Assembly: GCA_011170325.1 (NCBI GenBank)
Contig: DUEX01000005.1
Location: 1-51,900 of the forward strand
DNA length: 51,900 nt
Direction of reading: 5' to 3'
Origin: Dehalococcoidia bacterium
GTDB taxonomy: Bacteria; Chloroflexota; Dehalococcoidia; GIF9; UBA5629
Shown here: positions 20,970 through 38,554 of the stretch, piece by piece
Layout of the letters: each line of letters opens with the position of its first letter
Position numbering within the stretch: the stretch's first letter is position 1
Translations under genes and position numbers: made by a program
The notes under the pieces: generated by a model
The model's input: only the letters and a program-made list of their open reading frames with translations
The model's database searches: none
Told to the model about the DNA's origin: nothing

Positions 20970-22250
20970 ATGAATCGGGTATTAGCTATGATTTTAGCTG
21001 GTGGCGCCAGCGAGCGGTTGAGTATTCTGGCTAGCGAGAGAGCAAAGCCAGCGGTGCCTTTTGGTGGTAAGTATCGCATTATCGATTTTACCCTAAGCAA
21101 TTGTGTTAATTCCGCGATCTATAATGTGGCTGTGCTTACCCAGTTTAATCCTCGTTCCCTAGCCCAACATATCGGTGTCGGCAGACCCTGGGACTTAGAC
21201 AGGATTGCTGGCGGGATTACACTACTTCAGCCTTTTCTGAGCCGGTCAGACCGAGACTGGTACAGAGGTACTGCTGATGCAATATACCAGAACCTTTATT
21301 ATGTGGAAGAACAAAGGGTAGATGAAGTCCTTATTCTGTCTGGCGACCATGTTTACAATATGCGCTATGACCACATGATATCGACTCATCGTAGCAGGGA
21401 AAGTGATGTTACTGTGGCTGTGACCGAAGTGCCCGCATCAGAGATTTCGAGGTTTGGGATTATTGCTCTCGACCACAATGAACGTGTGGTCAATTTTCAA
21501 GAGAAACCGAAGACAGCTAAGAGCAATCTTGCCTCTATGGGGATATATGTTTTTGACAAGAGTGTTCTCATTGATTGCCTTGAGGAGTATGGCCGAAAGA
21601 AGGGTGGTCTTGATTTCGGATATAATATTTTACCTAGCATCATCGGAAAATATAAACTCCATGGCTACAAGTTTCGCGGCTACTGGCGGGATATAGGCAC
21701 TATCGAATCTTACTGGCAAGCTAATATGGACTTGATCGCTGATTTACCTGACTTGAACCTCTATGACCGGACTGCTGAGATCCGGACTGCCTATAAGAAC
21801 AAGCCTCCGGCGAAATTGGGACCAAATGCACAAGCAGTGAGGAGCCTGCTATCTAATGGCACTATCATTAATGGGCAGGTGGAGAACTCGGTTATTTTTT
21901 CAGGGGTATTTGTGGAGGAAAGGGCCGTGGTGAAAGACTCTGTTATTTTGGATGATAGTACCGTAGGCAGGGAGGCTACTGTTGACCGTGCTATTATCGA
22001 TAAGCAGGTCTGGATTGGTCCGGGATGCTATATCGGTTACGGAATCGACTTCACAGCCAATAAAGAAGAGCCAGAGAATCTTAATAGCGGCATAACCGTA
22101 GTGGGCAAGGGGGCTAGAATACCTGGTGATATGAAAGTCGGCCGCAATTGCAAAATCGGCTGTTGGGTGGAAGACGCTGATTTCGCTAGCAAGTCTGTCC
22201 CTAGTGGGGAAAGCGTGGCCAGTAAGAAGCCAAGACGCCATCCACTATGA
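20970..22250 (+). CDS. glgC: Glucose-1-phosphate adenylyltransferase (ADP-glucose pyrophosphorylase)
   Basis: Makes ADP-glucose from glucose-1-phosphate and ATP, the committing step of bacterial glycogen synthesis. The 426-aa protein has the nucleotidyltransferase start MILAGGASERL (the common form is GGGGTRL), AKPAVPFGGKYRIIDFTLSNCVNS, WYRGTADAIYQN, ILSGDHVYNMRY with the catalytic Asp, and the sugar site FGIIALD and NFQEKPK. The C-terminal left-handed beta-helix is seen as ENSVIFSGVFVEERAVVKDSVILDD. It precedes the branching enzyme by 10 bases. Confidence 0.93.
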   Translation: MNRVLAMILAGGASERLSILASERAKPAVPFGGKYRIIDFTLSNCVNSAIYNVAVLTQFNPRSLAQHIGVGRPWDLDRIAGGITLLQPFLSRSDRDWYRGTADAIYQNLYYVEEQRVDEVLILSGDHVYNMRYDHMISTHRSRESDVTVAVTEVPASEISRFGIIALDHNERVVNFQEKPKTAKSNLASMGIYVFDKSVLIDCLEEYGRKKGGLDFGYNILPSIIGKYKLHGYKFRGYWRDIGTIESYWQANMDLIADLPDLNLYDRTAEIRTAYKNKPPAKLGPNAQAVRSLLSNGTIINGQVENSVIFSGVFVEERAVVKDSVILDDSTVGREATVDRAIIDKQVWIGPGCYIGYGIDFTANKEEPENLNSGITVVGKGARIPGDMKVGRNCKIGCWVEDADFASKSVPSGESVASKKPRRHPL

Positions 22251-22260
22251 GAGGTGAAAG

Positions 22261-23949
22261 ATGAAAGTTGCAGCATTTACCTTTGTTTTACATAGCCATC
22301 TCCCTTATTGCCGTAACGCTGGACGTTGGCCTCATGGTGAGGAGTGGCTTCATGAAGCAGCCTTGGGAACCTACATACCACTGCTCGATGCCCTTTATGA
22401 TTTAAGACAAGGGGGCTGTTCTTTCAAGTTAACTGTAGGCTTAACTCCAGTGTTGGTTGAACAGCTGGCTGACTCGCTGGTAATTGCCCATTTGGCGGAA
22501 TTCATCGAAGAGAAAATCAATCGAGCTAAGGCAGATGTAAAGCGATTTGGCAAGGCTAGGGAAGGTCATCTCCTATATCTAGCTAAATTCTATCTTGCTA
22601 GATATCAGCAGATAATGAACAGTTTTAACGAGAGATTTGGACGAGACATAGTTTCTGCCTTCAAACAACTGCAAGACGAGGGCTATGTAGAAATAGCTAC
22701 TAGTGCAGCCACACATGCCTATTTACCGTTGTTAGAAAGTGATTCTTCCATTTACGGTCAACTGCAAACAGGCAAGGAGAGCTATCAACGTCATTTTGGT
22801 GTAAGTCCGTCCTCTGCCTGGCTTCCTGAGTGTGGCTATCGTCCTGCCTATTATACTGACAGCCAAAGCGAGAGCTATATTAAGCCTGGTTTGGAATCGT
22901 TTCTTGCCCAATTAGACATAAGCTGTTTCTTTGCTGAAACTCATACTGTAGAAGGCGGTGAGCCAGTAGGCAAAGCTAGAGAAGAAGTTATTGGTCCCTA
23001 TGCTGATATCCCACGACGCTATGTTGTGCCACTGCCCCAATATTCTGAACCAACGCAGAGGACCACTTACCTGCCTTACTGGGTGCAGACCCCGCAAGTA
23101 GCTGTCATTGGCAGGAATAATCGTACTGGTATGCAAGTTTGGTCTGCGGAATGGGGTTACCCCGGCGACTACCATTATCGTGAGTTTCACAAAAAAGATG
23201 GTATCTCCGGGCTTCAATACTGGAAGGTTACTGGAGCTAAAGTAGACCTGGGTTATAAGGAATATTACGACCCTTATTGGGCAGGGCAACGTGTGGCTGA
23301 ACACAGCTCTCATTATGCCCATTTGGTCGAGGAGTTGGTTACCAATTTCTACCAGGAAACTGGCAAATATGGCATTATTGCTGCTGCTTATGATACTGAA
23401 CTCTTTGGACACTGGTGGTTTGAGGGAGTCGACTGGGTGAAACAGGTCTTGCAGCACCTCAGCCAGAGTGAGCTAGTGGAATTGACCACTACCCACGAGT
23501 TTATAACTAGACATCCACCAGAGGATGTACTTGCCTTGCCTGAAGGTTCCTGGGGGATGGGTGGTGGTCATTTTACCTGGCAAAATGCTGATAACGACTG
23601 GATGTGGCCGATTATTTACTCAGCTGAAGGGAGGATGGAAAAGCTGGTGGCCAAGTATCCTAAAGCTGGTGGGGCAATGAAGGAAATCCTGAATCAGGCG
23701 GCCAGAGAACTAATCTTACTGGAGTCCAGTGACTGGCCTTTTCTCATAACCACAGGGCAAGCTGAAGCCTATGGTAAGAATCGCTTCCTGGAGCACGTGA
23801 ACCGCTTCCAGCAATTGGCTGATATGGCTGAATCAGGACAGGCAGATGAGACGGCTTTAGCCCTGTGTCACCAGCTGTGGGAACTGGATAAAGTTTTCCC
23901 CGGTATTGATTACCGTTCCTTTGCTGAGAGAGAAGGTCAAATCACGTGA
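22261..23949 (+). CDS. 1,4-alpha-glucan branching enzyme, GH57
   Basis: GH57 enzyme of 562 aa that introduces alpha-1,6 branches into glycogen. It starts with FTFVLHSHLPYCR. E190 in WLPECGYRP is the expected nucleophile and D378 in AAYDTELFGHWW the acid/base; GSWGMGGGHFTWQNADNDWMW is typical of the branching subgroup (Thermococcus TK1436 type, from recall). The C-terminal helical DUF1957-type domain covers about 430-560. It replaces the usual GH13 GlgB in this locus. It overlaps glgA around the TGATG junction, so synthase and branching enzyme should be made together. Confidence 0.9.
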   Translation: MKVAAFTFVLHSHLPYCRNAGRWPHGEEWLHEAALGTYIPLLDALYDLRQGGCSFKLTVGLTPVLVEQLADSLVIAHLAEFIEEKINRAKADVKRFGKAREGHLLYLAKFYLARYQQIMNSFNERFGRDIVSAFKQLQDEGYVEIATSAATHAYLPLLESDSSIYGQLQTGKESYQRHFGVSPSSAWLPECGYRPAYYTDSQSESYIKPGLESFLAQLDISCFFAETHTVEGGEPVGKAREEVIGPYADIPRRYVVPLPQYSEPTQRTTYLPYWVQTPQVAVIGRNNRTGMQVWSAEWGYPGDYHYREFHKKDGISGLQYWKVTGAKVDLGYKEYYDPYWAGQRVAEHSSHYAHLVEELVTNFYQETGKYGIIAAAYDTELFGHWWFEGVDWVKQVLQHLSQSELVELTTTHEFITRHPPEDVLALPEGSWGMGGGHFTWQNADNDWMWPIIYSAEGRMEKLVAKYPKAGGAMKEILNQAARELILLESSDWPFLITTGQAEAYGKNRFLEHVNRFQQLADMAESGQADETALALCHQLWELDKVFPGIDYRSFAEREGQIT

Positions 23950-25421
23950 TGAGAATCCTCTTTGTCGCTGCTGAAGCCACTCCGCTGGTCAAAGTGGGAG
24001 GCTTGGCTGATGTTGTTGGTTCATTACCTAAAGCTCTAAGTGAGCTGGGACATGATGTACGAGTGATGATGCCAAGATATGGCGTTATCGATGCCGGTAG
24101 ATTTTCCGTCGCGACAGCGATTGATGATTTTAATATCCGAGTGATGAATACCACAAAATCTGTGTCTTTGAAGGTCACCGAGCTCAGCGATGGTGGTAAA
24201 GTCTATCTGGTGGATAGCGCTGATTTCTCTGGTTCAAGCGAGGTGTACGGTAAGGACGCATTGAAACGTTTTTTCCTTTTCTGCCGGGCTGTCTTGGAAA
24301 TATTACCCAAACTGGATTGGCAGCCGGAGCTGGTTCATTGCCACGACTGGCACACCGCATTGATTCCTCTGTGGCTGAAGAGAAATGACTATCATTATGC
24401 TTCGCTCTTCACCATCCATAATCTAGCTTATCAAGGACCTTTCGATGATAAATTCCTGTCTGACTCTGGACTGAGGAGAGATTGGCAATCTCGGCCAGCG
24501 AATGTGCCTGAACCACCACTCAATTGCATGAGTCAGGGAATCCTCTGGGCTGACATGGTGACTACGGTCAGCGAAACTTATGCTAGAGAGATTGTGACTC
24601 CAGAATATGGTGAGAGGCTTGACCCGCTTTTACGCTATCGACGTGAGAAACTCCTTGGCATAGTTAACGGTTTAGATTATGAGGAATATAACCCAGCTAC
24701 TGACCCTCTTATCCCAGCTAATTATGATTGTTCAACGTTGGATAAAAGGATTGCTAATAAACTAGCTCTCCAGAAGCAAGCTAAGTTGCCTGAAAATGCC
24801 GAAATACCTCTTATTGGTATGGTATCACGTCTCGATGAGCAGAAGGGTTTGGATATTGTGGCCGAGAGCCTTGATTTCTTGCTTCACAAGACGCGAGCCC
24901 AGATGGTTATCTTGGGCAAAGGTATAGAGTACTATCATGGCTTGCTCAAGCAGGCAGCTAACAAATATCTCAAGCAATTAGCTGTGGTTATAGGCTTTGA
25001 CAATGCCTTAGCCCATCGTATCTACGCTGGCTGCGATATGTTTTTGATGCCGTCTCGATTTGAGCCGTGTGGCCTGGGGCAACTTATCGCTATGAGATAT
25101 GGGGCCGTGCCTGTAGTTCGTCGTACTGGCGGCTTGGCTGACACCGTCCAAGATTTGACTCAGAACCTTGGTGAGGGTACTGGTTTTGTATTTCATGACT
25201 ATGATTCAAAAGCCCTAGTGACTGCTATCCGGCGAGCAGTGGATGCCTACCAGGAGAAAGAAGCCTGGCGTAAGGTGATGCAACGAATCATGGCTCTCGA
25301 CTTTTCTTGGCAAGCTTCAGCTAAGAAATATGAGTCTCTTTATTATAAGACCTTGGAGCTAAAAGGCTATGCTAAAAGTCAATCAGCAGTTGGCCTTAGC
25401 CGTAGATTTAGGCGGGACTAA
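23949..25421 (+). CDS. glgA: Glycogen synthase (ADP-glucose)
   Basis: GT5 enzyme extending alpha-1,4-glucan from ADP-glucose. The N-terminus MRILFVAAEATPLVKVGGLADVV (broken here by normal variation) includes the K-V-G-G-L donor loop; VHCHDWHTALIPLW, FTIHNLAYQG, VSRLDEQKGLDI and SRFEPCGLGQLIAMRYG are all present. The ATG at 23949 shares its A with the preceding TGA stop; a GTG one codon earlier is possible but gives a less typical start. Its last 53 bases overlap the next gene, the ROK kinase. It acts between GlgC and the branching enzyme. Confidence 0.95.
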   Translation: MRILFVAAEATPLVKVGGLADVVGSLPKALSELGHDVRVMMPRYGVIDAGRFSVATAIDDFNIRVMNTTKSVSLKVTELSDGGKVYLVDSADFSGSSEVYGKDALKRFFLFCRAVLEILPKLDWQPELVHCHDWHTALIPLWLKRNDYHYASLFTIHNLAYQGPFDDKFLSDSGLRRDWQSRPANVPEPPLNCMSQGILWADMVTTVSETYAREIVTPEYGERLDPLLRYRREKLLGIVNGLDYEEYNPATDPLIPANYDCSTLDKRIANKLALQKQAKLPENAEIPLIGMVSRLDEQKGLDIVAESLDFLLHKTRAQMVILGKGIEYYHGLLKQAANKYLKQLAVVIGFDNALAHRIYAGCDMFLMPSRFEPCGLGQLIAMRYGAVPVVRRTGGLADTVQDLTQNLGEGTGFVFHDYDSKALVTAIRRAVDAYQEKEAWRKVMQRIMALDFSWQASAKKYESLYYKTLELKGYAKSQSAVGLSRRFRRD

Positions 25422-26364
25422 GATTATTGCTGCTGTAGTTCTGCCTGATGGCAAAATAATATCTCGGAACTACTGCCTGACTGTGGCTGATAAAGGCCCC
25501 AAGGCAGTGTTCAATCGATTGTTATCTGCTGCTAACAAGACTGTGACCCAAGCTAAGCTGAAGACCTCTGAGCTAACTGGCGTTGGCATTGCCGCTGCTG
25601 GAGCTTTAGATATGGAAAGAGGGGTTATAACTGACTCTCCTAATTTGCCCAATTGGCATGATATTCCTTTAAGAGATATTCTGGCTGATGGGTTGGGTAT
25701 CACTACTTATCTCATTAACGATGCTAGTGCTGCTGCCTTAGGGGAACATCGTTTTGGAGCTGGGAAAGGGGTAGATAATTTAATCTATCTTACGGTGAGC
25801 ACAGGCATTGGTGGCGGTATAATCATGGGCAGCAAACTCTATTCTGGGGCTGATGGTTGTGCTGGTGAACTGGGGCATATGACAATTGAAGCGGGTGGAC
25901 CGAAATGCAATTGTGGTAACTTGGGCTGTCTGGAGGCTCTGGCATCGGGCACTGCTGTAGCTAGGGAAGCAGTAAGACGAGTTAATGGAGGTGAAACAAG
26001 CTCTATCGTTGAACTTGTTGCTGGTAGGCTTGAAAGCATTACTGCTGAGATAGTGGCTTTGGCTGCAAGACAAGGTGATTCTTTAGCCTGTGATATAGTA
26101 GCGGAAGCTGCTAATTATCTAGGCATTGGTCTGGCAAATCTGGTCAATATTTTCAATCCTGAGCTGATTGTCATCGGTGGCGGTATGTCTCAGATGGGGA
26201 ATATGCTGCTTAAACCAGCCCGAAAAGTGGTTAAAGAGAGAGCTTTCAAACTGCCAGCTCGAACAGTGCGCATTGTTCGTGCCCGCCTTGGCAGCAACGC
26301 CGGGATAATTGGTGCTGCTGCATATGTTTTCGACCAGCAACTAGAAAGGAAGACAAAGGCGTGA
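25369..26364 (+). CDS. ROK family sugar kinase, probable glucokinase
   Basis: ATP-dependent sugar kinase of 331 aa. It shows AVDLGGTKIIAAVV (phosphate loop 1), STGIGGGIIMGSKLYSGADG, ELGHMTIEAGGPKCNCGNLGCLEALASG with the ROK zinc motif C-x-C-G-x-x-G-C-x-E split over the segment, and NPELIVIGGG. Glucose is the likeliest substrate because glucan-degrading GH57 enzymes and a trehalose synthase follow. The ATG at 25369 makes a 53-base overlap with glgA; a TTG at 25390 would shorten it but leave the fold with almost no lead-in. It overlaps the next gene by a GTGA. Confidence 0.88.
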   Translation: MLKVNQQLALAVDLGGTKIIAAVVLPDGKIISRNYCLTVADKGPKAVFNRLLSAANKTVTQAKLKTSELTGVGIAAAGALDMERGVITDSPNLPNWHDIPLRDILADGLGITTYLINDASAAALGEHRFGAGKGVDNLIYLTVSTGIGGGIIMGSKLYSGADGCAGELGHMTIEAGGPKCNCGNLGCLEALASGTAVAREAVRRVNGGETSSIVELVAGRLESITAEIVALAARQGDSLACDIVAEAANYLGIGLANLVNIFNPELIVIGGGMSQMGNMLLKPARKVVKERAFKLPARTVRIVRARLGSNAGIIGAAAYVFDQQLERKTKA

Positions 26365-27662
26365 TTTATTGGGCGCAACTTCTCCATTTCTATCAGCCAC
26401 CAACTCAATCACCTGCTGTCTTGAGGAAGATTTGTGAGGAGTCCTACCGACCTTTGATGAATGTTTTCCTCCAATATCCTCAGGCCAGAGTCACGGTGAA
26501 CATCAATGGTGTCCTCACTGAGATGCTCCATGACTGTGGATATGGTGATGTTATTGATGGGTTTAGACAGCTAGCCAAAAGGGGCCAGATAGAGTTCACC
26601 GGTAGCGGCAAATATCACCCAATCCTGCCGCTTATTCCCCAAAAGGAGGTGGAAAGGCAAATTCAGCTAAATTCAGGAACAAACAGGCGTTTGTTAGGAA
26701 AGGTCTATGAGCCACGCGGCTTTTTCCCGCCTGAGATGTGCTATAGTAAAGATATTGTCTCATCTATCCTGAATTCTGGGCATGAATGGGTTATATTGAG
26801 TGGCATCGCCTGTGGCTGTACAGAGAGTTGGCCAGTGGACAGGATTCACTATATCAAGGAAGGCAATAAACGGTTGCTGGTGCTCTTTCGTGATGACGTT
26901 GTCAGCAACAGAATATCCTTTCGAAATTTGGAAGCGGCTGAATTTCTGGATAACTTAAAGTATATCAAGGGGAAGAAGGAGAACATATATGTTGTCACCG
27001 CCATGGATGCCGAAACCTTTGGTCATCACATCCGGCACTGGGAAGAACTATTTCTGGCCGACGTTTATGAGCAAATTGAATCTAACCTAGGGGTGTTAGG
27101 CAGCCTCAAGCAGAGTACAGTGCTGGCTCATCAGCATAGCCTTTTCCTTGAAAATGGTAAGATGGCTGAAGAAGTCCAAGCTGTGACTATAAGTGAACTT
27201 CTAGAGCTTTTCCCGCTGGGTAGACGTATAGAACCACTGGCATCGTCATGGAGCACTTCTGCTCAAGATTTGGCCGCTGAAAATCCTTACCCTTTATGGA
27301 AGGAAAGAGGTAATGAGATTCATCGTCTTCAGTGGGAACACGTGGATATAACCATCGCATTGGTGGACGAGGCTATGGAAGTTGCTGATAGTGGTGAAGC
27401 TAAACGATTTGCCAATATCGCGCGTGGCTTGCTTGATAGGGCACTGCATAGCTGTCAGTTTTGGTGGGCAAGCCGGAGGCCAATGTGGGATATTAATTTG
27501 ATTCACATGGGATTGCTGGAACAATTACGGGCTATTGTTAACGCGTATCGAGCTATCAACCTTAGCCAGGCTGACGAAGATATCAAGCGGGATTACTATC
27601 ATAAGCTGGTAGCTGCCAGGGATTTGAGGAGCAAGATTAGTGACCGGCTTTTTGTATGGTGA
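26361..27662 (+). CDS. GH57 family protein, paralogue A
   Basis: A 433-aa GH57-type (beta/alpha)7-barrel protein. It begins with YWAQLLHFYQPPTQ, has QIEFTGSGKYHPILPLIP, FFPPEMCYS with the putative nucleophile Glu, AMDAETFGHH with the putative acid/base Asp, and a helical C-terminus with LHSCQFWWASRRPMWD. It is clearly paralogous to the gene at 30384 (shared PPTQ, QIEFTGS, YHPILPLIP, PPEMCYS, HSCQ-WWAS). Substrate unknown; an alpha-glucan hydrolase or transferase is likely from context. The GTG start overlaps the ROK stop by 4 bases. Confidence 0.85.
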   Translation: MIYWAQLLHFYQPPTQSPAVLRKICEESYRPLMNVFLQYPQARVTVNINGVLTEMLHDCGYGDVIDGFRQLAKRGQIEFTGSGKYHPILPLIPQKEVERQIQLNSGTNRRLLGKVYEPRGFFPPEMCYSKDIVSSILNSGHEWVILSGIACGCTESWPVDRIHYIKEGNKRLLVLFRDDVVSNRISFRNLEAAEFLDNLKYIKGKKENIYVVTAMDAETFGHHIRHWEELFLADVYEQIESNLGVLGSLKQSTVLAHQHSLFLENGKMAEEVQAVTISELLELFPLGRRIEPLASSWSTSAQDLAAENPYPLWKERGNEIHRLQWEHVDITIALVDEAMEVADSGEAKRFANIARGLLDRALHSCQFWWASRRPMWDINLIHMGLLEQLRAIVNAYRAINLSQADEDIKRDYYHKLVAARDLRSKISDRLFVW

Positions 27663-27703: not shown

Positions 27704-29083
27704 ATGGGTCAGTGGATTCAGTGGCTAACGGGCAATTGGCTTCAGGTAGCCATTCCAGTAATAGCCTTTCTCGCCTCCTATGTCGTTGGTCTGTGGTTGA
27801 GAAGGGTTGCCTATGATGCTTTCAACCGATGGATTGCGAGAGCAAAATGGGAAGGAAGTCGATTAGTTGTTGAGACGACACGGCGTCCTTTTTTGCACTG
27901 GTTCCTGTTATTGGGCGGTTATATAGCTATTTACGTCTCAGTATTGCCTCCGGAATGGAAAACTGCAGGTGGCAAGATAGTAGCTACCCTGTTTATTCTG
28001 TCCCTAACTTGGGTAGTTGTTAGATTAAGTGAAAAACTCCTAGAACTCAGTTTGCCCAAATTGAAAGCTCCGCCAACCCCAACCACACTAGTAGTAAATA
28101 TTGTCAGAGTTAGCGTCATTGTCGTTGGTGTATTAATAGTGCTTGATATCTGGGGAGCACCAACTACTCCCATTATTCTCGTTCTAGCTGCCGGCCTCTT
28201 TATAGCTGGTTTAGCTTTACGGGACACCATCCTTAACCTTTTTTCGGGAGCACAGGTAGTTTGGGGAGAACAAATCAAAGTGGGTGATTTTATTAGACTG
28301 GGGTCGGGAGAAACAGGTCATGTTACTGGCATCACTTGGCGCAATACCCAAATCAGGACGCTAGAGGGTAGTTCTGTTCTTATTCCTAATAGCATGCTGG
28401 CTCGAACTACTTTGACTAACTACGGGCATCCCGTTAAGGAGGCTACTTTTCCTCTTCACTTCTCCACTCGTCTCCATCTGAAAGAGTTGACCGGGCTTAA
28501 GGCAAGCAATTTGCGTGAGCTGGTCGATACATTGAAACAGGTACCTGACTCAGTTGTTTACTACCATACTCACCACTTCTTGGAGGAGCATCACTATCTC
28601 ACTCCTGAACCGGCTAACGATTTCGCATTATGGGTCAGCGATGCCTTGGGCAACGAGGTGTTGGGAGAGAGGTTGGCCAGTATAGACACCTTTGATTTTT
28701 CCACTATGGGGGCTTTGAAAGAACGGCTTGTGGATGTCATCGAAGACTATCTGGCAAGAAGTCCGGCTGGAGGTACAGCCCCAGAAGGGCGAGAATTTCA
28801 TTTTATTCGGTCGAGAAGTATCATACTCCCTACCCCCTATGTCGCTAGGGACCTGAGGGAATTTGTGGAGGTAATGAAAAAAATTACCATTGACTCCATT
28901 TACTTCCATGTTTTTGACGCTAGGTTGAGATTGCAAAAGGCCACGAACGATTTCTCTATATGGATTGAAGATGGCTTGGGAGAGCAGGAATTGGCTAACG
29001 AAATCTCCCGATTTGACCCTTATCTTTATACTTTGGAGAGTCTCAGAGCCAAAATAATTCAACTTGTTGAGAAGCATATTTAG
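27704..29083 (+). CDS. MscS-type mechanosensitive channel with two C-terminal DUF5752-like domains
   Basis: Membrane channel of 459 aa. Helices lie at about 13-32, 64-82, 91-108, 131-149 and a pore-lining one at about 153-172. The MscS beta domain covers about 175-242 (IKVGDFIRLG, GHVTGITWRNTQIRT, IPNSMLARTTLTNYG). The usual C-terminal vestibule is replaced by a tandem repeat: residues 250-350 and 364-459 align with each other (NLRELVDTL/DLREFVEVM, YYHTH/YFHVF, NDFALWVSDALGNE/NDFSIWIEDGLGEQ, LKERLVDVIE/LRAKIIQLVE). I recognise the repeat as DUF5752-like, a domain I recall near trehalose synthases. It lies between two GH57 genes and 12 bases before treT, suggesting osmotic control of solute or glycogen metabolism. 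Confidence 0.88.
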   Translation: MGQWIQWLTGNWLQVAIPVIAFLASYVVGLWLRRVAYDAFNRWIARAKWEGSRLVVETTRRPFLHWFLLLGGYIAIYVSVLPPEWKTAGGKIVATLFILSLTWVVVRLSEKLLELSLPKLKAPPTPTTLVVNIVRVSVIVVGVLIVLDIWGAPTTPIILVLAAGLFIAGLALRDTILNLFSGAQVVWGEQIKVGDFIRLGSGETGHVTGITWRNTQIRTLEGSSVLIPNSMLARTTLTNYGHPVKEATFPLHFSTRLHLKELTGLKASNLRELVDTLKQVPDSVVYYHTHHFLEEHHYLTPEPANDFALWVSDALGNEVLGERLASIDTFDFSTMGALKERLVDVIEDYLARSPAGGTAPEGREFHFIRSRSIILPTPYVARDLREFVEVMKKITIDSIYFHVFDARLRLQKATNDFSIWIEDGLGEQELANEISRFDPYLYTLESLRAKIIQLVEKHI

Positions 29084-29095
29084 ATAGGGAATTCT

Positions 29096-30343
29096 ATGGA
29101 AGAAGAGATTTACCGACAGTCTAAAAGCAAAATTGAAGATTATGAGACCATTGTTGGCAGAAGCTATATTGAAGAGCTCAAAATACTTGGAGACAGGCTC
29201 TCTGGAAAGATTATTCAGAATATAAACTCCACCTATGTTGGTGGGGGCGTAGCTGAAATCTTGAGCCACTTAGTGCCCTTATTTAATCAACTGGGCGTTG
29301 ATGCTAGATGGAATGTTATTCAGGGTAGTGACAAGTTTTTCGAGGTTACCAAGAAGTTCCACAACGCTCTCCACGGCAAGGACGAGAAGATATCTCCCGA
29401 GGAATTTTCTCTGTTCTTGGAGATAAACCAGCGTAATCTAAATGAACTGAATTTTTTCGGAGACATACTTTTTGTTCATGATCCCCAACCAGTAGCCCTG
29501 ATAGCCAAGAAGGATGAGATCGGTAGAAAATGGGTATGGAGATGCCACATTGATGTATCAAATCCTAATCAGGAAGTATGGGATTTCCTTCGTGGTTTCA
29601 TTCATGATTACGATGCCGTAGCCTTCTCGTCTCCTAGCTTCTCTCGGCAAATACCTGTTAGCCAGTTCTTGATTTCACCTTCGATAGACCCATTGAGTGA
29701 CAAGAACAAGGAGATACCTCCGGAAGCAATTGATTCTGTGCTGGCAAAATATGGCCTAGGTCAAGACAAACCTATGATTGTCCAGGTTTCTCGCTTTGAT
29801 TATCTCAAGGATCCTATAGGGGTGATAAACGCTTTTGAAAGAGTGAAAAGGAATATAGACTGCCAACTGGTCTTAGCTGGTGGTACAGCCAGCGATGACC
29901 CAGAATCGGAAAAGGTGCTTAACGAGGTTATGGAACGAGCAGCAGGAAATCCAGACATTCATATCCTTCTGATACCTCCAGGTAGTGATATTGAAATAAA
30001 TGCCTTGCAGAGGGCAGCTACAATAATCATGCAGAAGTCCTTAAAGGAAGGCTTTGGTCTAACTGTAAGCGAGGCTCTTTGGAAGAGGAAGCCTGTAATA
30101 GCCGGTGCGGTCGGTGGGATACCACTGCAAATTCAACATAGATTCACTGGCCTTTTATGCTACAGCATTGAGGGGGCGGTTTATGCTCTAAGGCAGCTCT
30201 TAACCAACCCCGAATATGCTGGCTGGCTTGGGGAAAATGGCCGACAGCATGTCAAACAAAATTTCTTAATAACTCGCCAGCTTAGAGATTACTTGCTTAT
30301 GTTCCTATCTCTATACTACCCCGGAGACGTAGTTCAGCTGTAA
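29096..30343 (+). CDS. treT: Trehalose glycosyltransferring synthase (TreT type, GT4)
   Basis: GT4 enzyme of 415 aa that makes trehalose from NDP-glucose and glucose, reversible in characterised archaeal and thermophile enzymes. The N-domain has INSTYVGGGVAEILSHLVPL, LGVDARWNVIQG and FVHDPQPVALI; the C-domain has VSRFDYLKDPIGVI, KEGFGLTVSEALWKRKPVIAG with the two-Glu donor motif, and GGIPLQI. ADP-glucose from GlgC and glucose from the GH57 enzymes are available from the same operon. It follows the MscS gene after 12 bases. Very likely a member of the TreT family; the exact donor nucleotide is unknown. Confidence 0.88.
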   Translation: MEEEIYRQSKSKIEDYETIVGRSYIEELKILGDRLSGKIIQNINSTYVGGGVAEILSHLVPLFNQLGVDARWNVIQGSDKFFEVTKKFHNALHGKDEKISPEEFSLFLEINQRNLNELNFFGDILFVHDPQPVALIAKKDEIGRKWVWRCHIDVSNPNQEVWDFLRGFIHDYDAVAFSSPSFSRQIPVSQFLISPSIDPLSDKNKEIPPEAIDSVLAKYGLGQDKPMIVQVSRFDYLKDPIGVINAFERVKRNIDCQLVLAGGTASDDPESEKVLNEVMERAAGNPDIHILLIPPGSDIEINALQRAATIIMQKSLKEGFGLTVSEALWKRKPVIAGAVGGIPLQIQHRFTGLLCYSIEGAVYALRQLLTNPEYAGWLGENGRQHVKQNFLITRQLRDYLLMFLSLYYPGDVVQL

Positions 30344-30383: not shown

Positions 30384-31613
30384 ATGTATTGGGTTAATTT
30401 TCTGCATATTTATCAGCCGCCAACGCAAACCGAAGAAATTGTGCGCAAGGTTACTGAAGAATGCTATGAAAAACTAATATCGGTACTGGAAGATGGGCCT
30501 CAAGGAAAAATCACTTTGAATATAAGTGCTGTCCTAACCGAGCAGCTTGACCGTTATGGATACAGTGATGTTATAGAAAGGCTAGGTAAATTGGCAGAGA
30601 AAGGACAGATTGAATTTACCGGCAGCGCCATGTATCATCCCATTTTGCCACTTATCCCTGAAGGCGAGGTAGTGCGACAAATAGAGATGAACACAAAAAT
30701 AAATAAGCGCTATTTCGGTGAGATTTACAACCCTAAGGGATTTTCCCCCCCTGAGATGTGCTACAGTTTTGATGTAGCTAAAATAGTTGCCAAGCTTGGT
30801 TTTTCGTGGATCATAGTAGATGAGCTATCCCTTCAAGGCAAGATAGGAACTGCCAGAGACGACGTAATTTACGAAATTAATGGTCTGGAGAACCTCGGCG
30901 CTTTTTTCAAAGAGCGCCCGCTCAGCGCTGGACTTACTTATGGTAAATACCCTAATGCCCAACTTTTCCTTAAAGATTTGGGAAACAAGTTGAATAGACA
31001 TTGTTATTTATTAACCGGTACTGACGGAGAAATCTACGGGCATCACCGCCCAGGACAGGAAAGACTGCTTGAGGAGGTCTTTGCTCAGGGAGAACCCCAG
31101 ACCTGCACCATTTCTGAACTGTCCCAGTTTTTCCGAAGCGTGGAAAAAGTGACACCACTGCCATGTTCATGGAGTACATGGGAAGATGAAATGGCTCATG
31201 GCATATATTATCCTCAATGGTCATACCCTGACCATGAAATCCACCGACTCCAGTGGTACCTGACTAATTTAGCCGTGCAGATCATCCGTGAGACTCCGGA
31301 GGATTCCGAAGGCTACCAGGAAGGTCGCCACCTTCTTGATGAAGGGCTGCATAGCTGCCAGTACTGGTGGGCGAGCTGTCGCCCATGGTGGGATACTGGG
31401 ATGATTGAAGCTGGAGCGCAGAAACTCTACAATGCAGTTCGTAGTATTAGGAATCTACCTAAAGAGCAAGTTGATAGAGCAAAGTCACTTTTCATTTTCA
31501 TAGTTGAAACAGCTAGAGAATGGCAGGGGACAGGCAAGGCTGAAGCACTGAAATGGAAGTATCTCGAAGAACATAAGGAAGTAACCTCCGAGTTGACTTT
31601 CGGGCAGCACTAA
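30384..31613 (+). CDS. GH57 family protein, paralogue B
   Basis: A 409-aa GH57-type protein and a close paralogue of the gene at 26361: VNFLHIYQPPTQ, QIEFTGSAMYHPILPLIP, FSPPEMCYS (putative nucleophile Glu), TGTDGEIYGHH (putative acid/base Asp) and LHSCQYWWASCRPWWD all line up. The paralogues enclose the MscS-treT pair, so an ancestral gene was probably duplicated within the operon. Substrate unknown; a glucan-degrading activity feeding glucose to TreT and the ROK kinase is inference. The ATG at 30384 is preceded by GAAAGGATG. Confidence 0.85.
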   Translation: MYWVNFLHIYQPPTQTEEIVRKVTEECYEKLISVLEDGPQGKITLNISAVLTEQLDRYGYSDVIERLGKLAEKGQIEFTGSAMYHPILPLIPEGEVVRQIEMNTKINKRYFGEIYNPKGFSPPEMCYSFDVAKIVAKLGFSWIIVDELSLQGKIGTARDDVIYEINGLENLGAFFKERPLSAGLTYGKYPNAQLFLKDLGNKLNRHCYLLTGTDGEIYGHHRPGQERLLEEVFAQGEPQTCTISELSQFFRSVEKVTPLPCSWSTWEDEMAHGIYYPQWSYPDHEIHRLQWYLTNLAVQIIRETPEDSEGYQEGRHLLDEGLHSCQYWWASCRPWWDTGMIEAGAQKLYNAVRSIRNLPKEQVDRAKSLFIFIVETAREWQGTGKAEALKWKYLEEHKEVTSELTFGQH

Positions 31614-31622
31614 GGAGCCTGT

Positions 31623-33527
31623 GTGAAGAAAGTATATGTTATTCTAGCTTTCCATGCCCATGAACCCATTTGGGAGCTTACCCAGAGGCTACTAGAGAAC
31701 GTCGATGACATGGATTTGAGGCAGGCTTTGCAAGATGAGAATTGGCTTCTTAAACGCAGTGCCGAGGGACGTGACATCTATCTGGAACTGGTAAACTTTG
31801 CTCGAGGCATGAACATTCCAGTGGCACTGGAAATTACTAATGAGCTATTGATTCAGATAGCCACCTTTATGCCGAAGACTTTGAACGAGATTAAGAAAGC
31901 TTATCAGGAGCGTTTTTTTTACCCCGTCTACGGTTATGCACACCACACCCATATCGCATTGCTGACTGAGACAGAAATAGAAGACGAGATACGCCTCAAC
32001 CGGGAATACATTCATGATATATTGCAAGTGCCTCAACCGATACATTCTGGTCTTTTTCCCATAGAGGGTTCCATAGATTCGAGCAAGCTTGCCGCTTTGA
32101 AACGAAGCGGCATCGTATGGGTTATCTTCCCCAACTTTGACCAACGCAAGGCTTACTATAAAGCTGATGGTAATCTCAATGAAGAATATGAGCCCTTCTT
32201 GATCTTCCACGACATTATCGCCTTACCACGCCATTTCGCAGTTTCGCAGCATATATGGCGTCCCATTACCAAGTGGAAGACGGAAGGCGTAAAGAGTCAG
32301 GGCTACATCCTGGGACGCTACTGGGTGTTGCCTGAGGAATATCAACACCAGCAATTTGTCCAATTCCCTATTAGCAGGGAGGTAGCTATATCCGAATATG
32401 AGGCGGTTCTGTATCAAGCTTTGAAAGGAGCTCCTGACAAAGGGCTTATCCTGTACATTCAAGATTTGGAACTGATGGACTTTGGCGATGTGGCTCTTGA
32501 TATCATGCGGAGTGCGTGGACTAACGTGATTGAACAAAATGACATCAAAGTGAACTTTGTCACGCCTGATCAGTATTTAGATGAAATTGTGTTGCCTCAA
32601 CTTGACAAGCTTAAACATGTTCGCTTTCATCAGGTGTCTTGGGCTCCTGAAATCAGGTTAGTTCTGCGCTATGATGGCCACTACCCGCCATTAGAAGCAG
32701 GTGAGTTCAGAGGCATTGATGCGACTAAGCAAATTTTCCGGCCACTACCTTTTATTTTCTGGGAACCGGGACGTTATATTGCTGAACTTGTTAACGCTCT
32801 TCTGGCTACTTTCGGCTTGTCACAAGAGATACCTGCGACAGCAGCGCAGCTAAATGAAGCAAATTACGATTTTGGCAAACTCCCCACCAATGTCCAAATT
32901 CTCTTACACTCGCGTATTATCAAGCGAGCCTGCAATTGGGGGTGGTTTCCCAACGAAGGCTTACAGAAAAGACCTTTCATCCATGGCTATTGCCTTGCCG
33001 ACCTTCTTTTTGAGAGATTAGAAACGAGTAATTCTGCTTCTCTCAGAAATGACCTTGTCCTAGTAGACAACTCTTCTTTCTATGGACTTGAGCGCATACT
33101 TGAGGTCATTATTGATACCCGGTGCAGTTACTTAACTGAAGCCCTGGTCAAATTGTCGTTGAAATCTGGCTGGGAATATACCGAGGCATTTGAAGAACTG
33201 GACTTGGCATATCATTGGAGGAGAGAGGCAACCAAGTTTATTCTCAGAGCACAGCATCATAGTGAGCGGCTTCGATTTGCCACCGGAGGCAGGTTCACCA
33301 CAGAGCTGAGGCACATGCTCTTCAACTTCCGTGAATATTGTCGAGCAGTTTTCATCTCCATTGACCGCATACAACGCACTTGGGTGAAAGCTGGAGATGT
33401 AGATACTGTCCTCACCGCCATGTACGAGTACCTTTATAGGCTTTATCCACCCAAATTCCCCGCAATATTGCAAAGCACTTTGAGTGAGGAGGAACTAGAG
33501 GAACTAAAGAAGCCTAAGCTAAGATGA
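31623..33527 (+). CDS. Divergent GH57-like protein, 634 aa
   Basis: The N-terminus KVYVILAFHAHEPIW fits the GH57 first strand with its HxHxP motif, and HHTHIALLTETEIEDEI fits the next helix. LFPIEGSID may hold the catalytic Glu and IQDLELMDFGD the catalytic Asp, but neither motif is standard, so activity is uncertain. The second half (about 370-634) is rich in helices, with WNWGWFPN-like aromatic patches (CNWGWFPNEG), and looks like a long form of the GH57 C-terminal helical region. The start is a GTG behind AAGGAG, 9 bases after the previous gene. Probably an alpha-glucan-active or glucan-binding protein; function not assigned. Confidence 0.7.
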   Translation: MKKVYVILAFHAHEPIWELTQRLLENVDDMDLRQALQDENWLLKRSAEGRDIYLELVNFARGMNIPVALEITNELLIQIATFMPKTLNEIKKAYQERFFYPVYGYAHHTHIALLTETEIEDEIRLNREYIHDILQVPQPIHSGLFPIEGSIDSSKLAALKRSGIVWVIFPNFDQRKAYYKADGNLNEEYEPFLIFHDIIALPRHFAVSQHIWRPITKWKTEGVKSQGYILGRYWVLPEEYQHQQFVQFPISREVAISEYEAVLYQALKGAPDKGLILYIQDLELMDFGDVALDIMRSAWTNVIEQNDIKVNFVTPDQYLDEIVLPQLDKLKHVRFHQVSWAPEIRLVLRYDGHYPPLEAGEFRGIDATKQIFRPLPFIFWEPGRYIAELVNALLATFGLSQEIPATAAQLNEANYDFGKLPTNVQILLHSRIIKRACNWGWFPNEGLQKRPFIHGYCLADLLFERLETSNSASLRNDLVLVDNSSFYGLERILEVIIDTRCSYLTEALVKLSLKSGWEYTEAFEELDLAYHWRREATKFILRAQHHSERLRFATGGRFTTELRHMLFNFREYCRAVFISIDRIQRTWVKAGDVDTVLTAMYEYLYRLYPPKFPAILQSTLSEEELEELKKPKLR

Positions 33528-33613
33528 TGCTTATTACAGACAACCTTATAACAATTAGGGTTTGAAAGAGTGCTGATGTCATAATAGTATTGCTGGTAAA
33601 GAGGAGAACAAAA

Positions 33614-33922
33614 GTGAAAGCAAAGGAACTAATCGGTAGGGAGGTCGTTGGCGCTGATGCTAGGAAGGTAGTAGGTAAAGTTGCTGACAAAGATTTGGAT
33701 GTGGCTAGTGTGGCTATGAGTAACATCGTGGTGGAATCAGGTTTGACAAAGAAAATATCGATTCCACCGGAAGATATTGACGGGAATGGGGGCAGGGTTG
33801 TGCTGAAGGTTATCGGGGATAAGATACGGAAAGCAAGTTATGATTTCAGATATATGGTTCGATATTGTTTCCAAACAATCTGGAGCAAAAGTACTTTTCA
33901 GACTCCTCAACTGTGCAGATAA
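33614..33922 (+). CDS. PRC-barrel domain protein
   Basis: A 102-aa protein beginning VKAKELIGREVVGADARKVVGKVADKDLD, a typical PRC beta-barrel opening here split by the family's usual variation, and running to VVLKVIGDKI at about residue 73. PRC barrels bind RNA or protein partners, as in RimM and photosynthetic reaction centre H. The last 30 residues (from RKASYDF on) are unlike the domain and cover a perfect dyad in the DNA, so the true end of the functional protein may be shorter. A GTG at 33614 behind GAGGAG is better than the upstream TTG-type starts. Confidence 0.7.
   Translation: MKAKELIGREVVGADARKVVGKVADKDLDVASVAMSNIVVESGLTKKISIPPEDIDGNGGRVVLKVIGDKIRKASYDFRYMVRYCFQTIWSKSTFQTPQLCR
33864..33879. 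promoter_or_regulatory. Perfect 16-base dyad upstream of the glucanotransferase gene
   Basis: ATTGTTTCCAAACAAT, two perfect 7-base arms around CC, lies 68 bases before the GH57 gene at 33948 and inside the atypical tail of the PRC gene. Its symmetry fits a repressor operator; a weak hairpin is the alternative. Confidence 0.35.
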
Positions 33923-33947
33923 TTAACGTTAATATATTAGCAATTCG

Positions 33948-36131
33948 ATGAAGCAAATTTACATTGGCTTGGCCATCCATAATCACCAGCCCTTGGGTAA
34001 CTTTCCGTGGGTCCTTGAGCAAGCTTATCAGCAAGCCTACTTGCCTATGGTTGAGGTGCTGGAGAAACATCCTGCCATTCACCTCTCCTTGCATTATAGC
34101 GGTTGCCTTATCGATTGGTTAGAGCAAGTCCATCCTGAGTTCCTATATCGACTGGCTAGGTTGGTAAACCAACATCAAGTGGAAATCATGGGGGGTGCTT
34201 ATTATGAGCCTATCCTGCCAGCCATTCCTGATGCTGATAAATTGGGGCAGACTGCCAAAATGGGTGCTATTATCAGACAAAGATTCGGTTCAAAGTCGAC
34301 TGGGATATGGCTGGCAGAGCGAGTTTGGGAGCCATATCTGACTAAGATCCTAGCCGAGGCAGGTGTGGAATGGACACTAGTTGATGATACCGCCTTCAAG
34401 TTGGTAGGGCTAGAGGGCAAAGACCTCTTCGGTTACTATGTTACTGAGGAGCAAGGTCACTCTGTAAAAGCATTTCCGATTAGTAAGCATCTACGTTACT
34501 CTATACCTTGGCATTGTGTAGACAAGGTTATTGATTACCTGCGTGATGAGGCTTCGGATAAAGAAGGCAAAATAGCTATATTAGGTGACGATGGTGAGAA
34601 ATTTGGTGTCTGGCCTGGAACTTACGACCATTGCTGGCAGAAAGGATGGGTGGATAGATTTTTCACTGAGCTAGAGGCTAACCAGGGTTGGCTGCACACT
34701 ATTCAGCTTGGTGAATATGCTCATCAGTTTCCGCCCCTAGGTAGGGTTTATTTGCCCTGTGCTTCCTATGATGAGATGCTGGAGTGGTCTCTGCCAGCTG
34801 ACAAGTCTTGGGAATATACTAATCTTAAACATCAGCTTGAAGCTGAAGGACGTCAAGATGTAACGCAATTCATGCATAGTGGTTTATGGCGCAATTTTTT
34901 GGTCAAGTATCCAGAGATAAACCGAATGCACAAAAAAATGCTCCGTGTCCATCAAAAAGTTTACCAAGCGCGTGTTCTCGGTGGGGGTGATTGTGGGCTG
35001 GAGGAGCTATGGAAAGGGCAATGCAATTGCCCCTACTGGCATGGCGTTTTTGGTGGGATTTACCTGGCTGATATTCGGGCAGCTACTTATAACCATCTCA
35101 TTCAGGCGGAGAACAAGGCCGATAAGATAATTCGGCAGCATCGTTCGTGGTTAAAGAGAGTGTTTCACCCGAGCCAGGAATGGCTGGAATGGCAAAAGAC
35201 TGACTTTGATGGGGATGGTGCTGAGGAGTTGCTTATTGAGGGCGATACTTTTTCCGTTTATTTAAGCCCTAAAGAAGGCGGCTCTATTTTTGAGTGGGAC
35301 ATTCGCCACCATAACTATAACCTATTCAGCACGTTAGCCAGAAGACCAGAGGCTTATCACAGGATATTGACCGAGCCATCCTCCGAAAAGCAGACCACGG
35401 GAGAGAATGCAATTCCCAGTATACATGACTTGATAAGAATAAAAGACGGGGGATCCTCCCCCTCTTTGGTCTATGACCAGTATCTCCGGTCTAGCTTTAT
35501 CGACCATTTTTTAAGTCCTAAGACGGCGCTTAAGGAATTTGCTACCTATTCTTATAAGGAGCTGGGAAACTTTGTTAACCAACCTTATGACTCTTCAGTG
35601 GAGAGTAGGGGCACCGAAATGAGGGTTTGGCTAAGACGAAATGGGGTTCTACAAATTGGCAGAAAGAGTCTATCCTTTGAAGTAGGGAAGGAAATCAAAT
35701 TGGAGACAGGGAAGGAGAAGATAGAAATAAGCTATCAATTGAAGAACATGAGCGATTCACCTGTTCAGGCTACTTTTGGCAGCGAATGGAATATAAACTT
35801 GCTTGGTGGCGGACACAATGAACAAGCTTATTACCAGGTACCTGGATTTACTTTAGATGACTATCATCTTGATTCCTGGGGTGAGCTGATAGACATTGAA
35901 AGGGTTGTCTTGGGTAATCACCAGTTGGGTGTAGAACTAGAGTTAACGGCAATGCCAAAAATAAGACTGTGGCGTTTCCCTGTGGAGAGCATTTCCAATT
36001 CTGAAGGCGGTATGGAAAGGCTATATCAAGGAAGTTGCCTAGTTGCTTTGTTACCTCTCAATTTGATTCCGGGCGAGGTAGCTAGTCTTAATCTCATTTG
36101 GCAAGTTAAGCCGTCTGTCACTCTAGCATAA
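33948..36131 (+). CDS. GH57 4-alpha-glucanotransferase / alpha-amylase
   Basis: A 727-aa protein with the full architecture of Thermococcus 4-alpha-glucanotransferase: GH57 barrel (about 1-300), helical middle domain (about 300-400) and a C-terminal beta-sandwich (about 420-727) of the DUF1926 type. E124 in WLAERVWEP matches the known nucleophile E123, and D214/D215 in ILGDDGEKFGVWPG match the known D214. HNHQPLGNF near the N-terminus is the first GH57 motif. It transfers or hydrolyses alpha-1,4-glucan chains and probably reshapes glycogen. It is the last gene of the carbohydrate block. Confidence 0.9.
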   Translation: MKQIYIGLAIHNHQPLGNFPWVLEQAYQQAYLPMVEVLEKHPAIHLSLHYSGCLIDWLEQVHPEFLYRLARLVNQHQVEIMGGAYYEPILPAIPDADKLGQTAKMGAIIRQRFGSKSTGIWLAERVWEPYLTKILAEAGVEWTLVDDTAFKLVGLEGKDLFGYYVTEEQGHSVKAFPISKHLRYSIPWHCVDKVIDYLRDEASDKEGKIAILGDDGEKFGVWPGTYDHCWQKGWVDRFFTELEANQGWLHTIQLGEYAHQFPPLGRVYLPCASYDEMLEWSLPADKSWEYTNLKHQLEAEGRQDVTQFMHSGLWRNFLVKYPEINRMHKKMLRVHQKVYQARVLGGGDCGLEELWKGQCNCPYWHGVFGGIYLADIRAATYNHLIQAENKADKIIRQHRSWLKRVFHPSQEWLEWQKTDFDGDGAEELLIEGDTFSVYLSPKEGGSIFEWDIRHHNYNLFSTLARRPEAYHRILTEPSSEKQTTGENAIPSIHDLIRIKDGGSSPSLVYDQYLRSSFIDHFLSPKTALKEFATYSYKELGNFVNQPYDSSVESRGTEMRVWLRRNGVLQIGRKSLSFEVGKEIKLETGKEKIEISYQLKNMSDSPVQATFGSEWNINLLGGGHNEQAYYQVPGFTLDDYHLDSWGELIDIERVVLGNHQLGVELELTAMPKIRLWRFPVESISNSEGGMERLYQGSCLVALLPLNLIPGEVASLNLIWQVKPSVTLA

Positions 36132-36241: not shown

Positions 36242-36886
36242 ATGTTGAATGAGCATGATATTCGATACGTACTCAGCCTTTCTTTGGAGGAGGCTGCTTT
36301 TGGCTGTGAAAAGATAACCAAGATAAAAACTGGTGAAGTTTGCTCTTCATGTGAGGGTTCTGGCAGAAGTTCAACGCTAGATTCAACAATATGCCCAAAG
36401 TGCCATGGTATTGGACAAATATATCAGTCTTATCCTATATCAGTACACATACCGGCTGGTGTTAAGGATGGTTATCAGCTCCATGTTAACACCAAGGATC
36501 AAGCTGGACTAAGAGGAGAAGTTTTGGAAGAGCTCGATGTAATAGTTTCTATCAGGGCGCACAAAGTTTTTCAGCGCAGTGACGATGATGTTATTTATGA
36601 GATGCCGTTAAATTTTGCTCAAGCTGCTTTAGGAGCTGAATTGATGGTGCCCACGTTGAAAGGCAGTGTCAAATTAAGAATCCCCCCTGGTACCCAGACG
36701 GGCAGGCTTTTTCGTCTCAAAGGCAAGGGCATTCCTCATCTTGATAGACGGGGTAAGGGTGACCAGTTGGTCAAGATACGAGTGGTAACGCCAACCTCAC
36801 TTGGTGAACACCAACGATGGCTCCTTGAGCGGCTAGCCAAAAGCTTATCCCAAGCTGAATTAGGAGAGAGGAAAAGCAGGCGATAG
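36242..36886 (+). CDS. DnaJ-like protein without J domain, reduced zinc finger
   Basis: A 214-aa protein equal to the substrate-binding part of DnaJ. It starts at IRYVLSLSLEEAAFGCEK (first beta-domain), then has only two of the usual four zinc motifs, C34SSC37EGSG and C51PKC54HGIG, enough for one zinc centre, followed by the C-terminal domains (VHIPAGVKDGYQL, DVIVSIRAHKVFQRSDDDVIYEMPLNFAQAALG split by variation, and LKGKGIPHL). Without the HPD-bearing J domain it cannot stimulate DnaK by itself and may hold substrates or work with a separate J protein. It has its own promoter and ends at a bidirectional terminator. Confidence 0.85.
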   Translation: MLNEHDIRYVLSLSLEEAAFGCEKITKIKTGEVCSSCEGSGRSSTLDSTICPKCHGIGQIYQSYPISVHIPAGVKDGYQLHVNTKDQAGLRGEVLEELDVIVSIRAHKVFQRSDDDVIYEMPLNFAQAALGAELMVPTLKGSVKLRIPPGTQTGRLFRLKGKGIPHLDRRGKGDQLVKIRVVTPTSLGEHQRWLLERLAKSLSQAELGERKSRR

Positions 36887-36889
36887 TAC

Positions 36890-36921
36890 AAGTGGTGATA
36901 GCTGAAGAGTTATCACCACTT
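36890..36921. terminator. Bidirectional hairpin between convergent genes
   Basis: AAGTGGTGATA (36890-36900) and TATCACCACTT (36911-36921) form a perfect 11-pair stem with a 10-base loop, between the DnaJ-like gene and the end of the transporter gene. The right arm contains the transporter's final Lys-Trp-stop codons. No strong T-tract follows on either side. Confidence 0.55.
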
Positions 36922-38187
36922 CTCTTGAGCCAGCCTGGAAGTAAGCCAGGTGCGTAGTGGTTCATCCAATACACCGACTCTGGATTCTAGCCAGCGGATG
37001 TCTCCACTCTCCAGAGCTGCTTTTGCCTCGGGAGTTAGATTGTAACCTTTAAGAGTCTGGTTGGGATTATCTGCGAGTTTGGCTAAGAAGGCGTTGTCAT
37101 CCCTGGCTTTAGCTAACACTGATATTAGAGCTTTGGTTTCTGCATCTAGGTAGCCTGCCTGTTGAGGTTGGAGACGGAGCTTACGGAAGACGTTTGTCAT
37201 CCACGGTCTAGCAGCTACCGCTTCAGCAGCACGCTCTTTACGAAGGTATATAAGCCAATACATGCTGCCTACGAAGCTGCCACCGACTATATTGCCCAGA
37301 GTAACTGGAATGAGATTACCAATAAGACCGCTGGCATTAAGGTTGGCTACTTGACTAGCAGCTACACCAGCTGCATTAAGAACCTCAGACTGTCCTGCTA
37401 TAGCTATGCCCATGGGAATGAAATACATATTCGCAACACTATGCTCAAAGCCACAAGCTACGAAAGCGGTTATAGGGAAGAGGATAGCAAATATTTTGTC
37501 AACAGTTGTACGAGCTCCAAAACAGAGCCAGACAGCTAAGCACACCAAAGCATTACATAAGATACCTCGGGCAAAAGCTGGCCAGAAAGCTAGGCTGACT
37601 TTAGCATTAGCAATCAGTAAGGCGTTAGCACCTACCTTGTAGGCATTCAGCCCCCAGAAATTGCTATAAAACACTACGAGTACCAAGAGTAACGACCCGA
37701 TGAGATTGGTGAAATAAACTATGCCCCAATTTTGAAACAATTGAGTCAGTTTGATTTTGCCACTAAATTGGCTGCCTACCATAAGAGCATTGCCGGTAAA
37801 TAACTCAGCTCCAGCTACTACCACAAGAATAAGTCCTAAGCAGAATACGACTCCGCCCAGCAGCTTGCTTAAGCCAAAGCCAATGTCGATATCAGTAGTA
37901 ACCAAGGTGCAGAACATAGCTCCTAGACCAATGAAAAATCCTGCCAGTATGCCAAGAAGCGAGATAGTGAGGATATCTCCATTTGCCTTGGTTACGCCTG
38001 TGGCTTCCATTTTGACTGCCATCTCTGCTGGTGGTCGACAATCAGTAACAGCAGATTTCTTCAGTTCCTCTAAGGCAGTTTGGAGGCGAGACACTTCAGC
38101 AATCCGGGGTTCTAAAGCTTCTAATGCCTGTGTCTCCTTGCCCGACAAATTTGAGCGCACCATAGTTCTATCCCTCGCTTTCACCAT
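36913..38187 (-). CDS. Formate/nitrite transporter family protein fused to a LigA-like C-terminal module
   Basis: Membrane transporter of the FocA/NirC family with six helices between about residues 85 and 325 (numbering from the longest start at 38211). VAGAELFTGN and CGFEHSVANMYFIPMG, holding the central pore His, are family hallmarks. The N-terminal 80 residues are an extra soluble segment, probably a coiled coil. The last 75 residues (LDAETKALISVLAKA ... NLTPEAKAALESGDIRW ... WLTSRLAQEKW) are not part of the family: they match the stand-alone protein encoded just upstream and resemble LigA-type small domains. I prefer the ATG at 38187, overlapping the previous stop in ATGGTGA; 38211, 38199 and 38163 are possible. 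Substrate is probably a small monocarboxylate or nitrite. Confidence 0.85.
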   Translation of the reverse strand: MVKARDRTMVRSNLSGKETQALEALEPRIAEVSRLQTALEELKKSAVTDCRPPAEMAVKMEATGVTKANGDILTISLLGILAGFFIGLGAMFCTLVTTDIDIGFGLSKLLGGVVFCLGLILVVVAGAELFTGNALMVGSQFSGKIKLTQLFQNWGIVYFTNLIGSLLLVLVVFYSNFWGLNAYKVGANALLIANAKVSLAFWPAFARGILCNALVCLAVWLCFGARTTVDKIFAILFPITAFVACGFEHSVANMYFIPMGIAIAGQSEVLNAAGVAASQVANLNASGLIGNLIPVTLGNIVGGSFVGSMYWLIYLRKERAAEAVAARPWMTNVFRKLRLQPQQAGYLDAETKALISVLAKARDDNAFLAKLADNPNQTLKGYNLTPEAKAALESGDIRWLESRVGVLDEPLRTWLTSRLAQEKW

Positions 38188-38507: not shown

Positions 38508-38554
38508 TTTTGTCACCTCCTTCTTTTTTATTTATCTTTCTATAATAACTGTAG

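Follow-up and report, generated by a model that had tools for sequence, protein, structure and literature searches.

Why does a mechanosensitive-type channel carry a DUF5752 domain, and why does its gene stand directly before a gene for a trehalose synthase? The gene lies in the window analyzed here, a 51,900-nucleotide stretch of a Dehalococcoidia bacterium (contig DUEX01000005.1, positions 1 to 51,900), among glycogen and GH57 genes. The features that bear on the question are as follows.

20970..26364, + strand: GlgC-like gene, GH57 branching enzyme, GlgA (GT5) and ROK kinase (Pfam)
26361..27662, + strand: GH57 enzyme upstream of the fusion gene (PF03065, 2.4e-39)
27704..29083, + strand: MscS-type membrane part fused to DUF5752/OrfY, 459 aa (ORF, Pfam, AlphaFold model)
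27704..28267, + strand: membrane part, residues 1-188, five predicted transmembrane helices (model, Foldseek, phmmer)
28289..28420, + strand: MscS beta domain, strands at residues 196-239 (PF00924 at 174-241)
28451..28747, + strand: DUF5752 repeat 1, residues 250-348, YYHTH and NDFALW motifs (PF19027 on this half, 9.7e-32)
28793..29080, + strand: DUF5752 repeat 2, residues 364-459, YFH and NDFSIW motifs (PF19027 on this half, 2.1e-31)
29096..30343, + strand: TreT, a GT4 trehalose synthase, 12 bases 3' of the fusion gene (PF21269, 8.9e-55)
30384..36131, + strand: more GH57 genes, a PRC-barrel protein and a GH57 alpha-amylase/4-alpha-glucanotransferase (Pfam)

Pfam analysis identified the MscS beta domain (PF00924) at residues 174-241 (4.6e-16; 59.1 bits, cut-off 20.2) and DUF5752 (PF19027) at residues 251-456 (1.3e-68; 230.9 bits, curated cut-off 23), the latter match covering nearly the full profile (positions 4-208 of 208). 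The two DUF5752 halves of about 95 residues are homologous to each other (hhalign probability 99%, E 2.9e-18, against E 0.01-0.6 in 20 column-shuffled control runs), and each matches PF19027 at about 1e-31, as an earlier sequence-only reading had expected for residues 250-350 and 364-459. That reading had spoken of a duplicated DUF5752-like domain; the family and the two homologous repeats were confirmed, but the domain is not itself duplicated, as the PF19027 model already spans both repeats and the fusion holds one complete DUF5752 with an internal duplication. PF00924 was found in 29 of 30 aligned proteins, the remaining one being a stand-alone DUF5752. The third, alpha/beta vestibule domain of MscS (PF21082) was matched in none of the 30, and is present in ordinary MscS genes from the same neighbourhoods. 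DUF5752 thus occupies the place of the third MscS domain with the beta domain retained, so that the earlier claim that the repeats replace the normal vestibule is right for the third domain and wrong for the beta domain.

An AlphaFold2 model was built from ten homologues (mean pLDDT 81; pTM 0.55, a low value that does not fix the relative placement of the membrane and DUF5752 parts). It predicts five long N-terminal helices (residues 12-47, 52-78, 83-120, 124-149 and 155-171/173-188), the last kinked in the prediction like TM3a/3b of MscS, followed by a small beta domain (196-239) and two copies of a long strand plus helices. The modelled N-terminal part matches YnaI (9h95, Foldseek E 1.3e-9) and MscS structures (E about 1e-9), and phmmer also links the membrane part to MscS/YnaI. 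YnaI has five transmembrane helices, as predicted here. The fusion thus appears to share the kinked pore helix and beta domain of the MscS family (E. coli MscS, YnaI) and differs in the replacement of PF21082 by DUF5752. A short MscS chain from Trypanosoma cruzi (9bgq) also resembles the model (TMt 0.73 over 121 columns), but is without DUF5752. A fold search among viral proteins gave generic MscS matches only.

For the C-terminal part, the nearest solved structure is 4cso, OrfY of Thermoproteus tenax (phmmer 5e-23, alignment over 208 residues), to which the model also matches by fold (Foldseek E 1.5e-13, probability 1.00, TMt 0.66). The two share the same two-repeat domain, which is a separate chain of 216 residues in T. 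tenax and the C-terminus of a channel-type protein here. The sequence-only reading had named an ordinary MscS vestibule as the result that would tell against it; such a vestibule, modified or not, is ruled out for the repeats, since the predicted fold is that of OrfY and PF21082 is absent from the 30 members. The depositors' label on 4cso would make the fusion a membrane-tethered transcription factor. Apart from the PDB label nothing points this way, and the domain is fused to a channel and none of the scans matched a DNA-binding family, which makes this role highly improbable.

We take T. tenax orfY to lie upstream of treT, the same place as DUF5752 here. The 2008 literature reportedly places orfY upstream of a 'unidirectional' TreT, and the abstract of Kouril et al. 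is said to describe an upstream orfY of unknown function in a TreT-OrfY cluster conserved in many archaea and a few bacteria. By these accounts the OrfY-TreT pairing is already known, and to our knowledge no function has been assigned to OrfY since 2008, despite its released structure. A study of T. tenax refers to Kouril et al. 2008 on the unidirectional TreT pathway (PMC3634074), and the TreT of Sulfolobus acidocaldarius is functional in vivo (PMC7688234). The literature search returned no papers on DUF5752 by name or on OrfY with T. tenax, the matches listed for 4cso/OrfY/PF19027 concerned other things named orfY, and no description of an MscS-DUF5752 fusion was found in the literature searched.

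The distribution of the fusion was surveyed in 60 relatives and in samples of the phylum Chloroflexota (400 genomes) and the class Dehalococcoidia (393), mostly or all fragmented drafts and many of them MAGs, and the gene neighbourhoods were retrieved. Tandem DUF5752 was found at 52 loci in 47 genomes; they were drawn from overlapping samples of a single class and share descent, and so do not count as 52 independent events. At least part of MscS is encoded at 49 of the 52, and L136 is cut by the contig start. True stand-alone DUF5752 genes are those of L070, from another class, and L140 (214 and 229 residues). Outside Dehalococcoidia, the sole tandem DUF5752 in the phylum sample is the stand-alone one in genome G078. 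S. acidocaldarius, a control genome of the survey, gave matches to both DUF5752 and TreT, and a search for DUF5752 on plasmids gave no match.

The fusions span 16 GTDB families of the class, and TreT lies immediately 3' of the tandem DUF5752 on the same strand at 51 of the 52 loci; the sole locus without a downstream TreT (L068) is at a contig edge. Gaps between the two genes range from -32 to +134 bases, plus one of -124, and in many cases stop and start overlap by one base, as would fit translational coupling. A gene for TPP is nearby at 38 loci and one for GT20 TPS at 35, and the commonest arrangement is a trehalose operon, TPS-TPP-[MscS-DUF5752]-TreT, the order also seen around a second fusion copy in the window's own genome. 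The GH57/glycogen context of the window is a minority form. Its order (GlgC, GH57 branching enzyme, GlgA, ROK, GH57, fusion, TreT, more GH57) is found again in L045 and L047; ROK is missing in L050 and L055, and the context is partial in L068 and reduced in L063 and L065 (GH57, Glg and ROK were annotated by Pfam and, in relatives, by BLAST against the window's genes).

These data bear on several proposals of the sequence-only reading. The position between GH57 and TreT genes was borne out by Pfam, and the survey it had called for, of fusions and of their co-location with treT, gave the counts above. Its expectation that the neighbourhood is kept in related genomes held for treT, but not for the GH57/glycogen genes. 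A GH57 enzyme held at the membrane is unsupported because these genes flank only a minority of the loci, and GH57 is likewise ruled out as the conserved partner, with TreT kept in both contexts. Its proposed link between osmotic shock and trehalose turnover stays an inference.

Stand-alone DUF5752 (L070, L140) also lies directly before TreT, so the pairing is one of OrfY with TreT and not merely of channel with TreT. DUF5752 goes with one TreT clade whether or not a channel is present, and the fusion joins the channel to the same operon. On the simplest reading, DUF5752 is a TreT partner that in Dehalococcoidia became part of the cytoplasmic mouth of a channel of MscS type. We propose, tentatively and at somewhat less than an even chance, that the OrfY moiety, at the cytoplasmic opening of this osmotic channel, binds or regulates TreT and makes synthesis responsive to tension. 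The protein would form an oligomeric, conducting channel in which the cytoplasmic vestibule domain has been exchanged for OrfY/DUF5752, and this part, sitting where the pore meets the cytoplasm, would dock or regulate TreT. Trehalose synthesis would thereby be placed at a tension-gated channel and respond to it: at high osmolarity trehalose would be made, and on down-shock the channel would open, solute would exit and synthesis at the pore would halt. The adjacency of DUF5752 and TreT may, for its part, arise from co-expression alone.

A simpler role would be that of a release valve, a trehalose-permeable MscS-type channel co-expressed with synthesis, with DUF5752 as a structural substitute for the vestibule (in assembly or as a solute filter) and without contact to TreT. 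The MscS vestibule is thought to work as a solute filter. A further, ordinary MscS gene lies just upstream of TPS in L069 (11443-12783), L128 (2448-3821) and L134 (2408-3751), those of L128 and L134 having all three MscS domains by Pfam. The valve also agrees with the model for T. tenax, in which trehalose exits via the channel on stress relief or downshock (PMC3634074). However, channel-free DUF5752 still lies directly before TreT, so its role is not one in channel structure alone, and L120 (4036-4983) retains DUF5752 and the beta domain with room for one membrane helix at most, no further MscS sequence upstream and TreT still next downstream. We therefore regard the simple valve as unlikely, though not strongly so.

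In the TreT tree, the DUF5752-linked TreTs form a single clade (support 100/99). The class has two further TreT clades, both without tandem DUF5752; at one locus of these latter clades, L087, a single-repeat protein is encoded upstream. The copies from glycogen contexts (L001, the window, with L045, L047, L050 and L055) cluster together (84/85). By its N-terminal domain (PF21269) and its place in the DUF5752-linked clade, the window enzyme is classed as probably of the unidirectional type. Its best solved relative is 6zj4, a trehalose phosphorylase/synthase (417 bits), which we take to be the T. uzoniensis TreT named in PMC11046441. Against NCBIfam NF041139 (TreT_Thcocales) it scores 361.3 bits, below the cut-off of 775, and is not the Thermococcales equivalog.

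Co-evolution was also considered as a sign of specific contact between DUF5752 and TreT, and was rejected: an initial mirror-tree partial correlation of 0.63 drops to 0.29 once TPS and TPP are included. As this lies below the values for TreT-TPS (0.47) and DUF5752-MscS (0.34), it is not specific evidence for the pair; the value for MscS-TreT is about zero.

Divergence is fastest in the membrane part (mean distance 0.54; DUF5752 0.35, TreT 0.32), where the pore helix shows loose conservation, as might be expected if the MscS part were a non-conducting anchor that merely tethers TreT to the membrane. By alignment of the homologues, this helix is less Gly/Ala-rich than that of E. coli MscS, and conduction is for that reason not assured. 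Yet the residue pairs R173-D174, G194-D195 and P228-N229 of the pore helix and beta domain are nearly invariant and the entire architecture is preserved in 16 families, which leaves a mere anchor improbable.

Within DUF5752, the alignment revealed invariant residues in both repeats (Y286, H288, D306 and W310 in repeat 1; H402, R409, N415, D416 and W420 in repeat 2). These polar and aromatic residues could equally form a ligand pocket, and the domain might then bind trehalose, trehalose-6-phosphate or NDP-glucose and set the tension threshold of the channel, its stand-alone form setting TreT activity. The YH...NDFxxW signature recurs in single-repeat proteins and as an added domain in HAD-HerA and response-regulator/PPDK proteins, which would suit a sensory or regulatory module; the single-repeat relatives, however, are mostly away from trehalose genes, and the invariant residues may be structural. 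Ligand gating of this kind is, in our view, unlikely.

The proposed coupling of TreT to the channel has two precedents. In T. tenax, an MscS-like channel gene is co-transcribed with trehalose synthesis in the msc-gt-tpsp operon; the MSC protein (197 residues) resembles the MscS membrane region and inhibits growth of E. coli, with partial relief at higher osmolarity (PMC3634074). This operon likewise joins an MscS-like channel with trehalose synthesis, but its channel is a separate protein, and TreT and OrfY lie outside it. The cytoplasmic domain of E. coli MscS is reported to bind another protein, FtsZ (PMC4440785). A broader and doubtful extension is that OrfY/DUF5752 is a general adaptor that couples the biosynthetic enzyme TreT to a tension-gated channel, as one polypeptide in Dehalococcoidia and as separate OrfY and short MSC in Thermoproteales, which if true would put a trehalose synthase under direct control of membrane tension. 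A natural OrfY-channel fusion in 16 families, with TreT adjacent wherever testable, serves as a Rosetta-stone clue to a link between OrfY and osmotic release, and it makes OrfY function directly testable. Coupling, if real, would physically tie a metabolic enzyme to a mechanosensitive channel.

The single-repeat DUF5752 unit (YH...NDFSxW) occurs as stand-alone proteins of about 100 residues (L087, L091-L097, L099, L100), as a C-terminal domain behind a HAD phosphatase and a HerA-type ATPase (L072-L075, L077, L078) and inside a response-regulator/PPDK protein (L076); in L091 and L095 the small gene lies amid glycogen genes. In the window, 31623-33527 encodes a 634-residue protein amid the GH57 genes that scores 19.9 bits for GH57 (cut-off 21.2) and is found at the same position in relatives with 71-83% identity. 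A DnaJ-like protein (36242-36886) shows the C-terminal domain together with part of the zinc-binding region, with no J domain reported. Further downstream, a formate/nitrite transporter (36913-38211, - strand) has a C-terminal tail that resembles the adjacent 110-residue protein (38181-38516, - strand), itself a weak match to the Frankia_peptide (Franean1_4349-type) RiPP family (PF14407, 26 bits, below the cut-off of 48).
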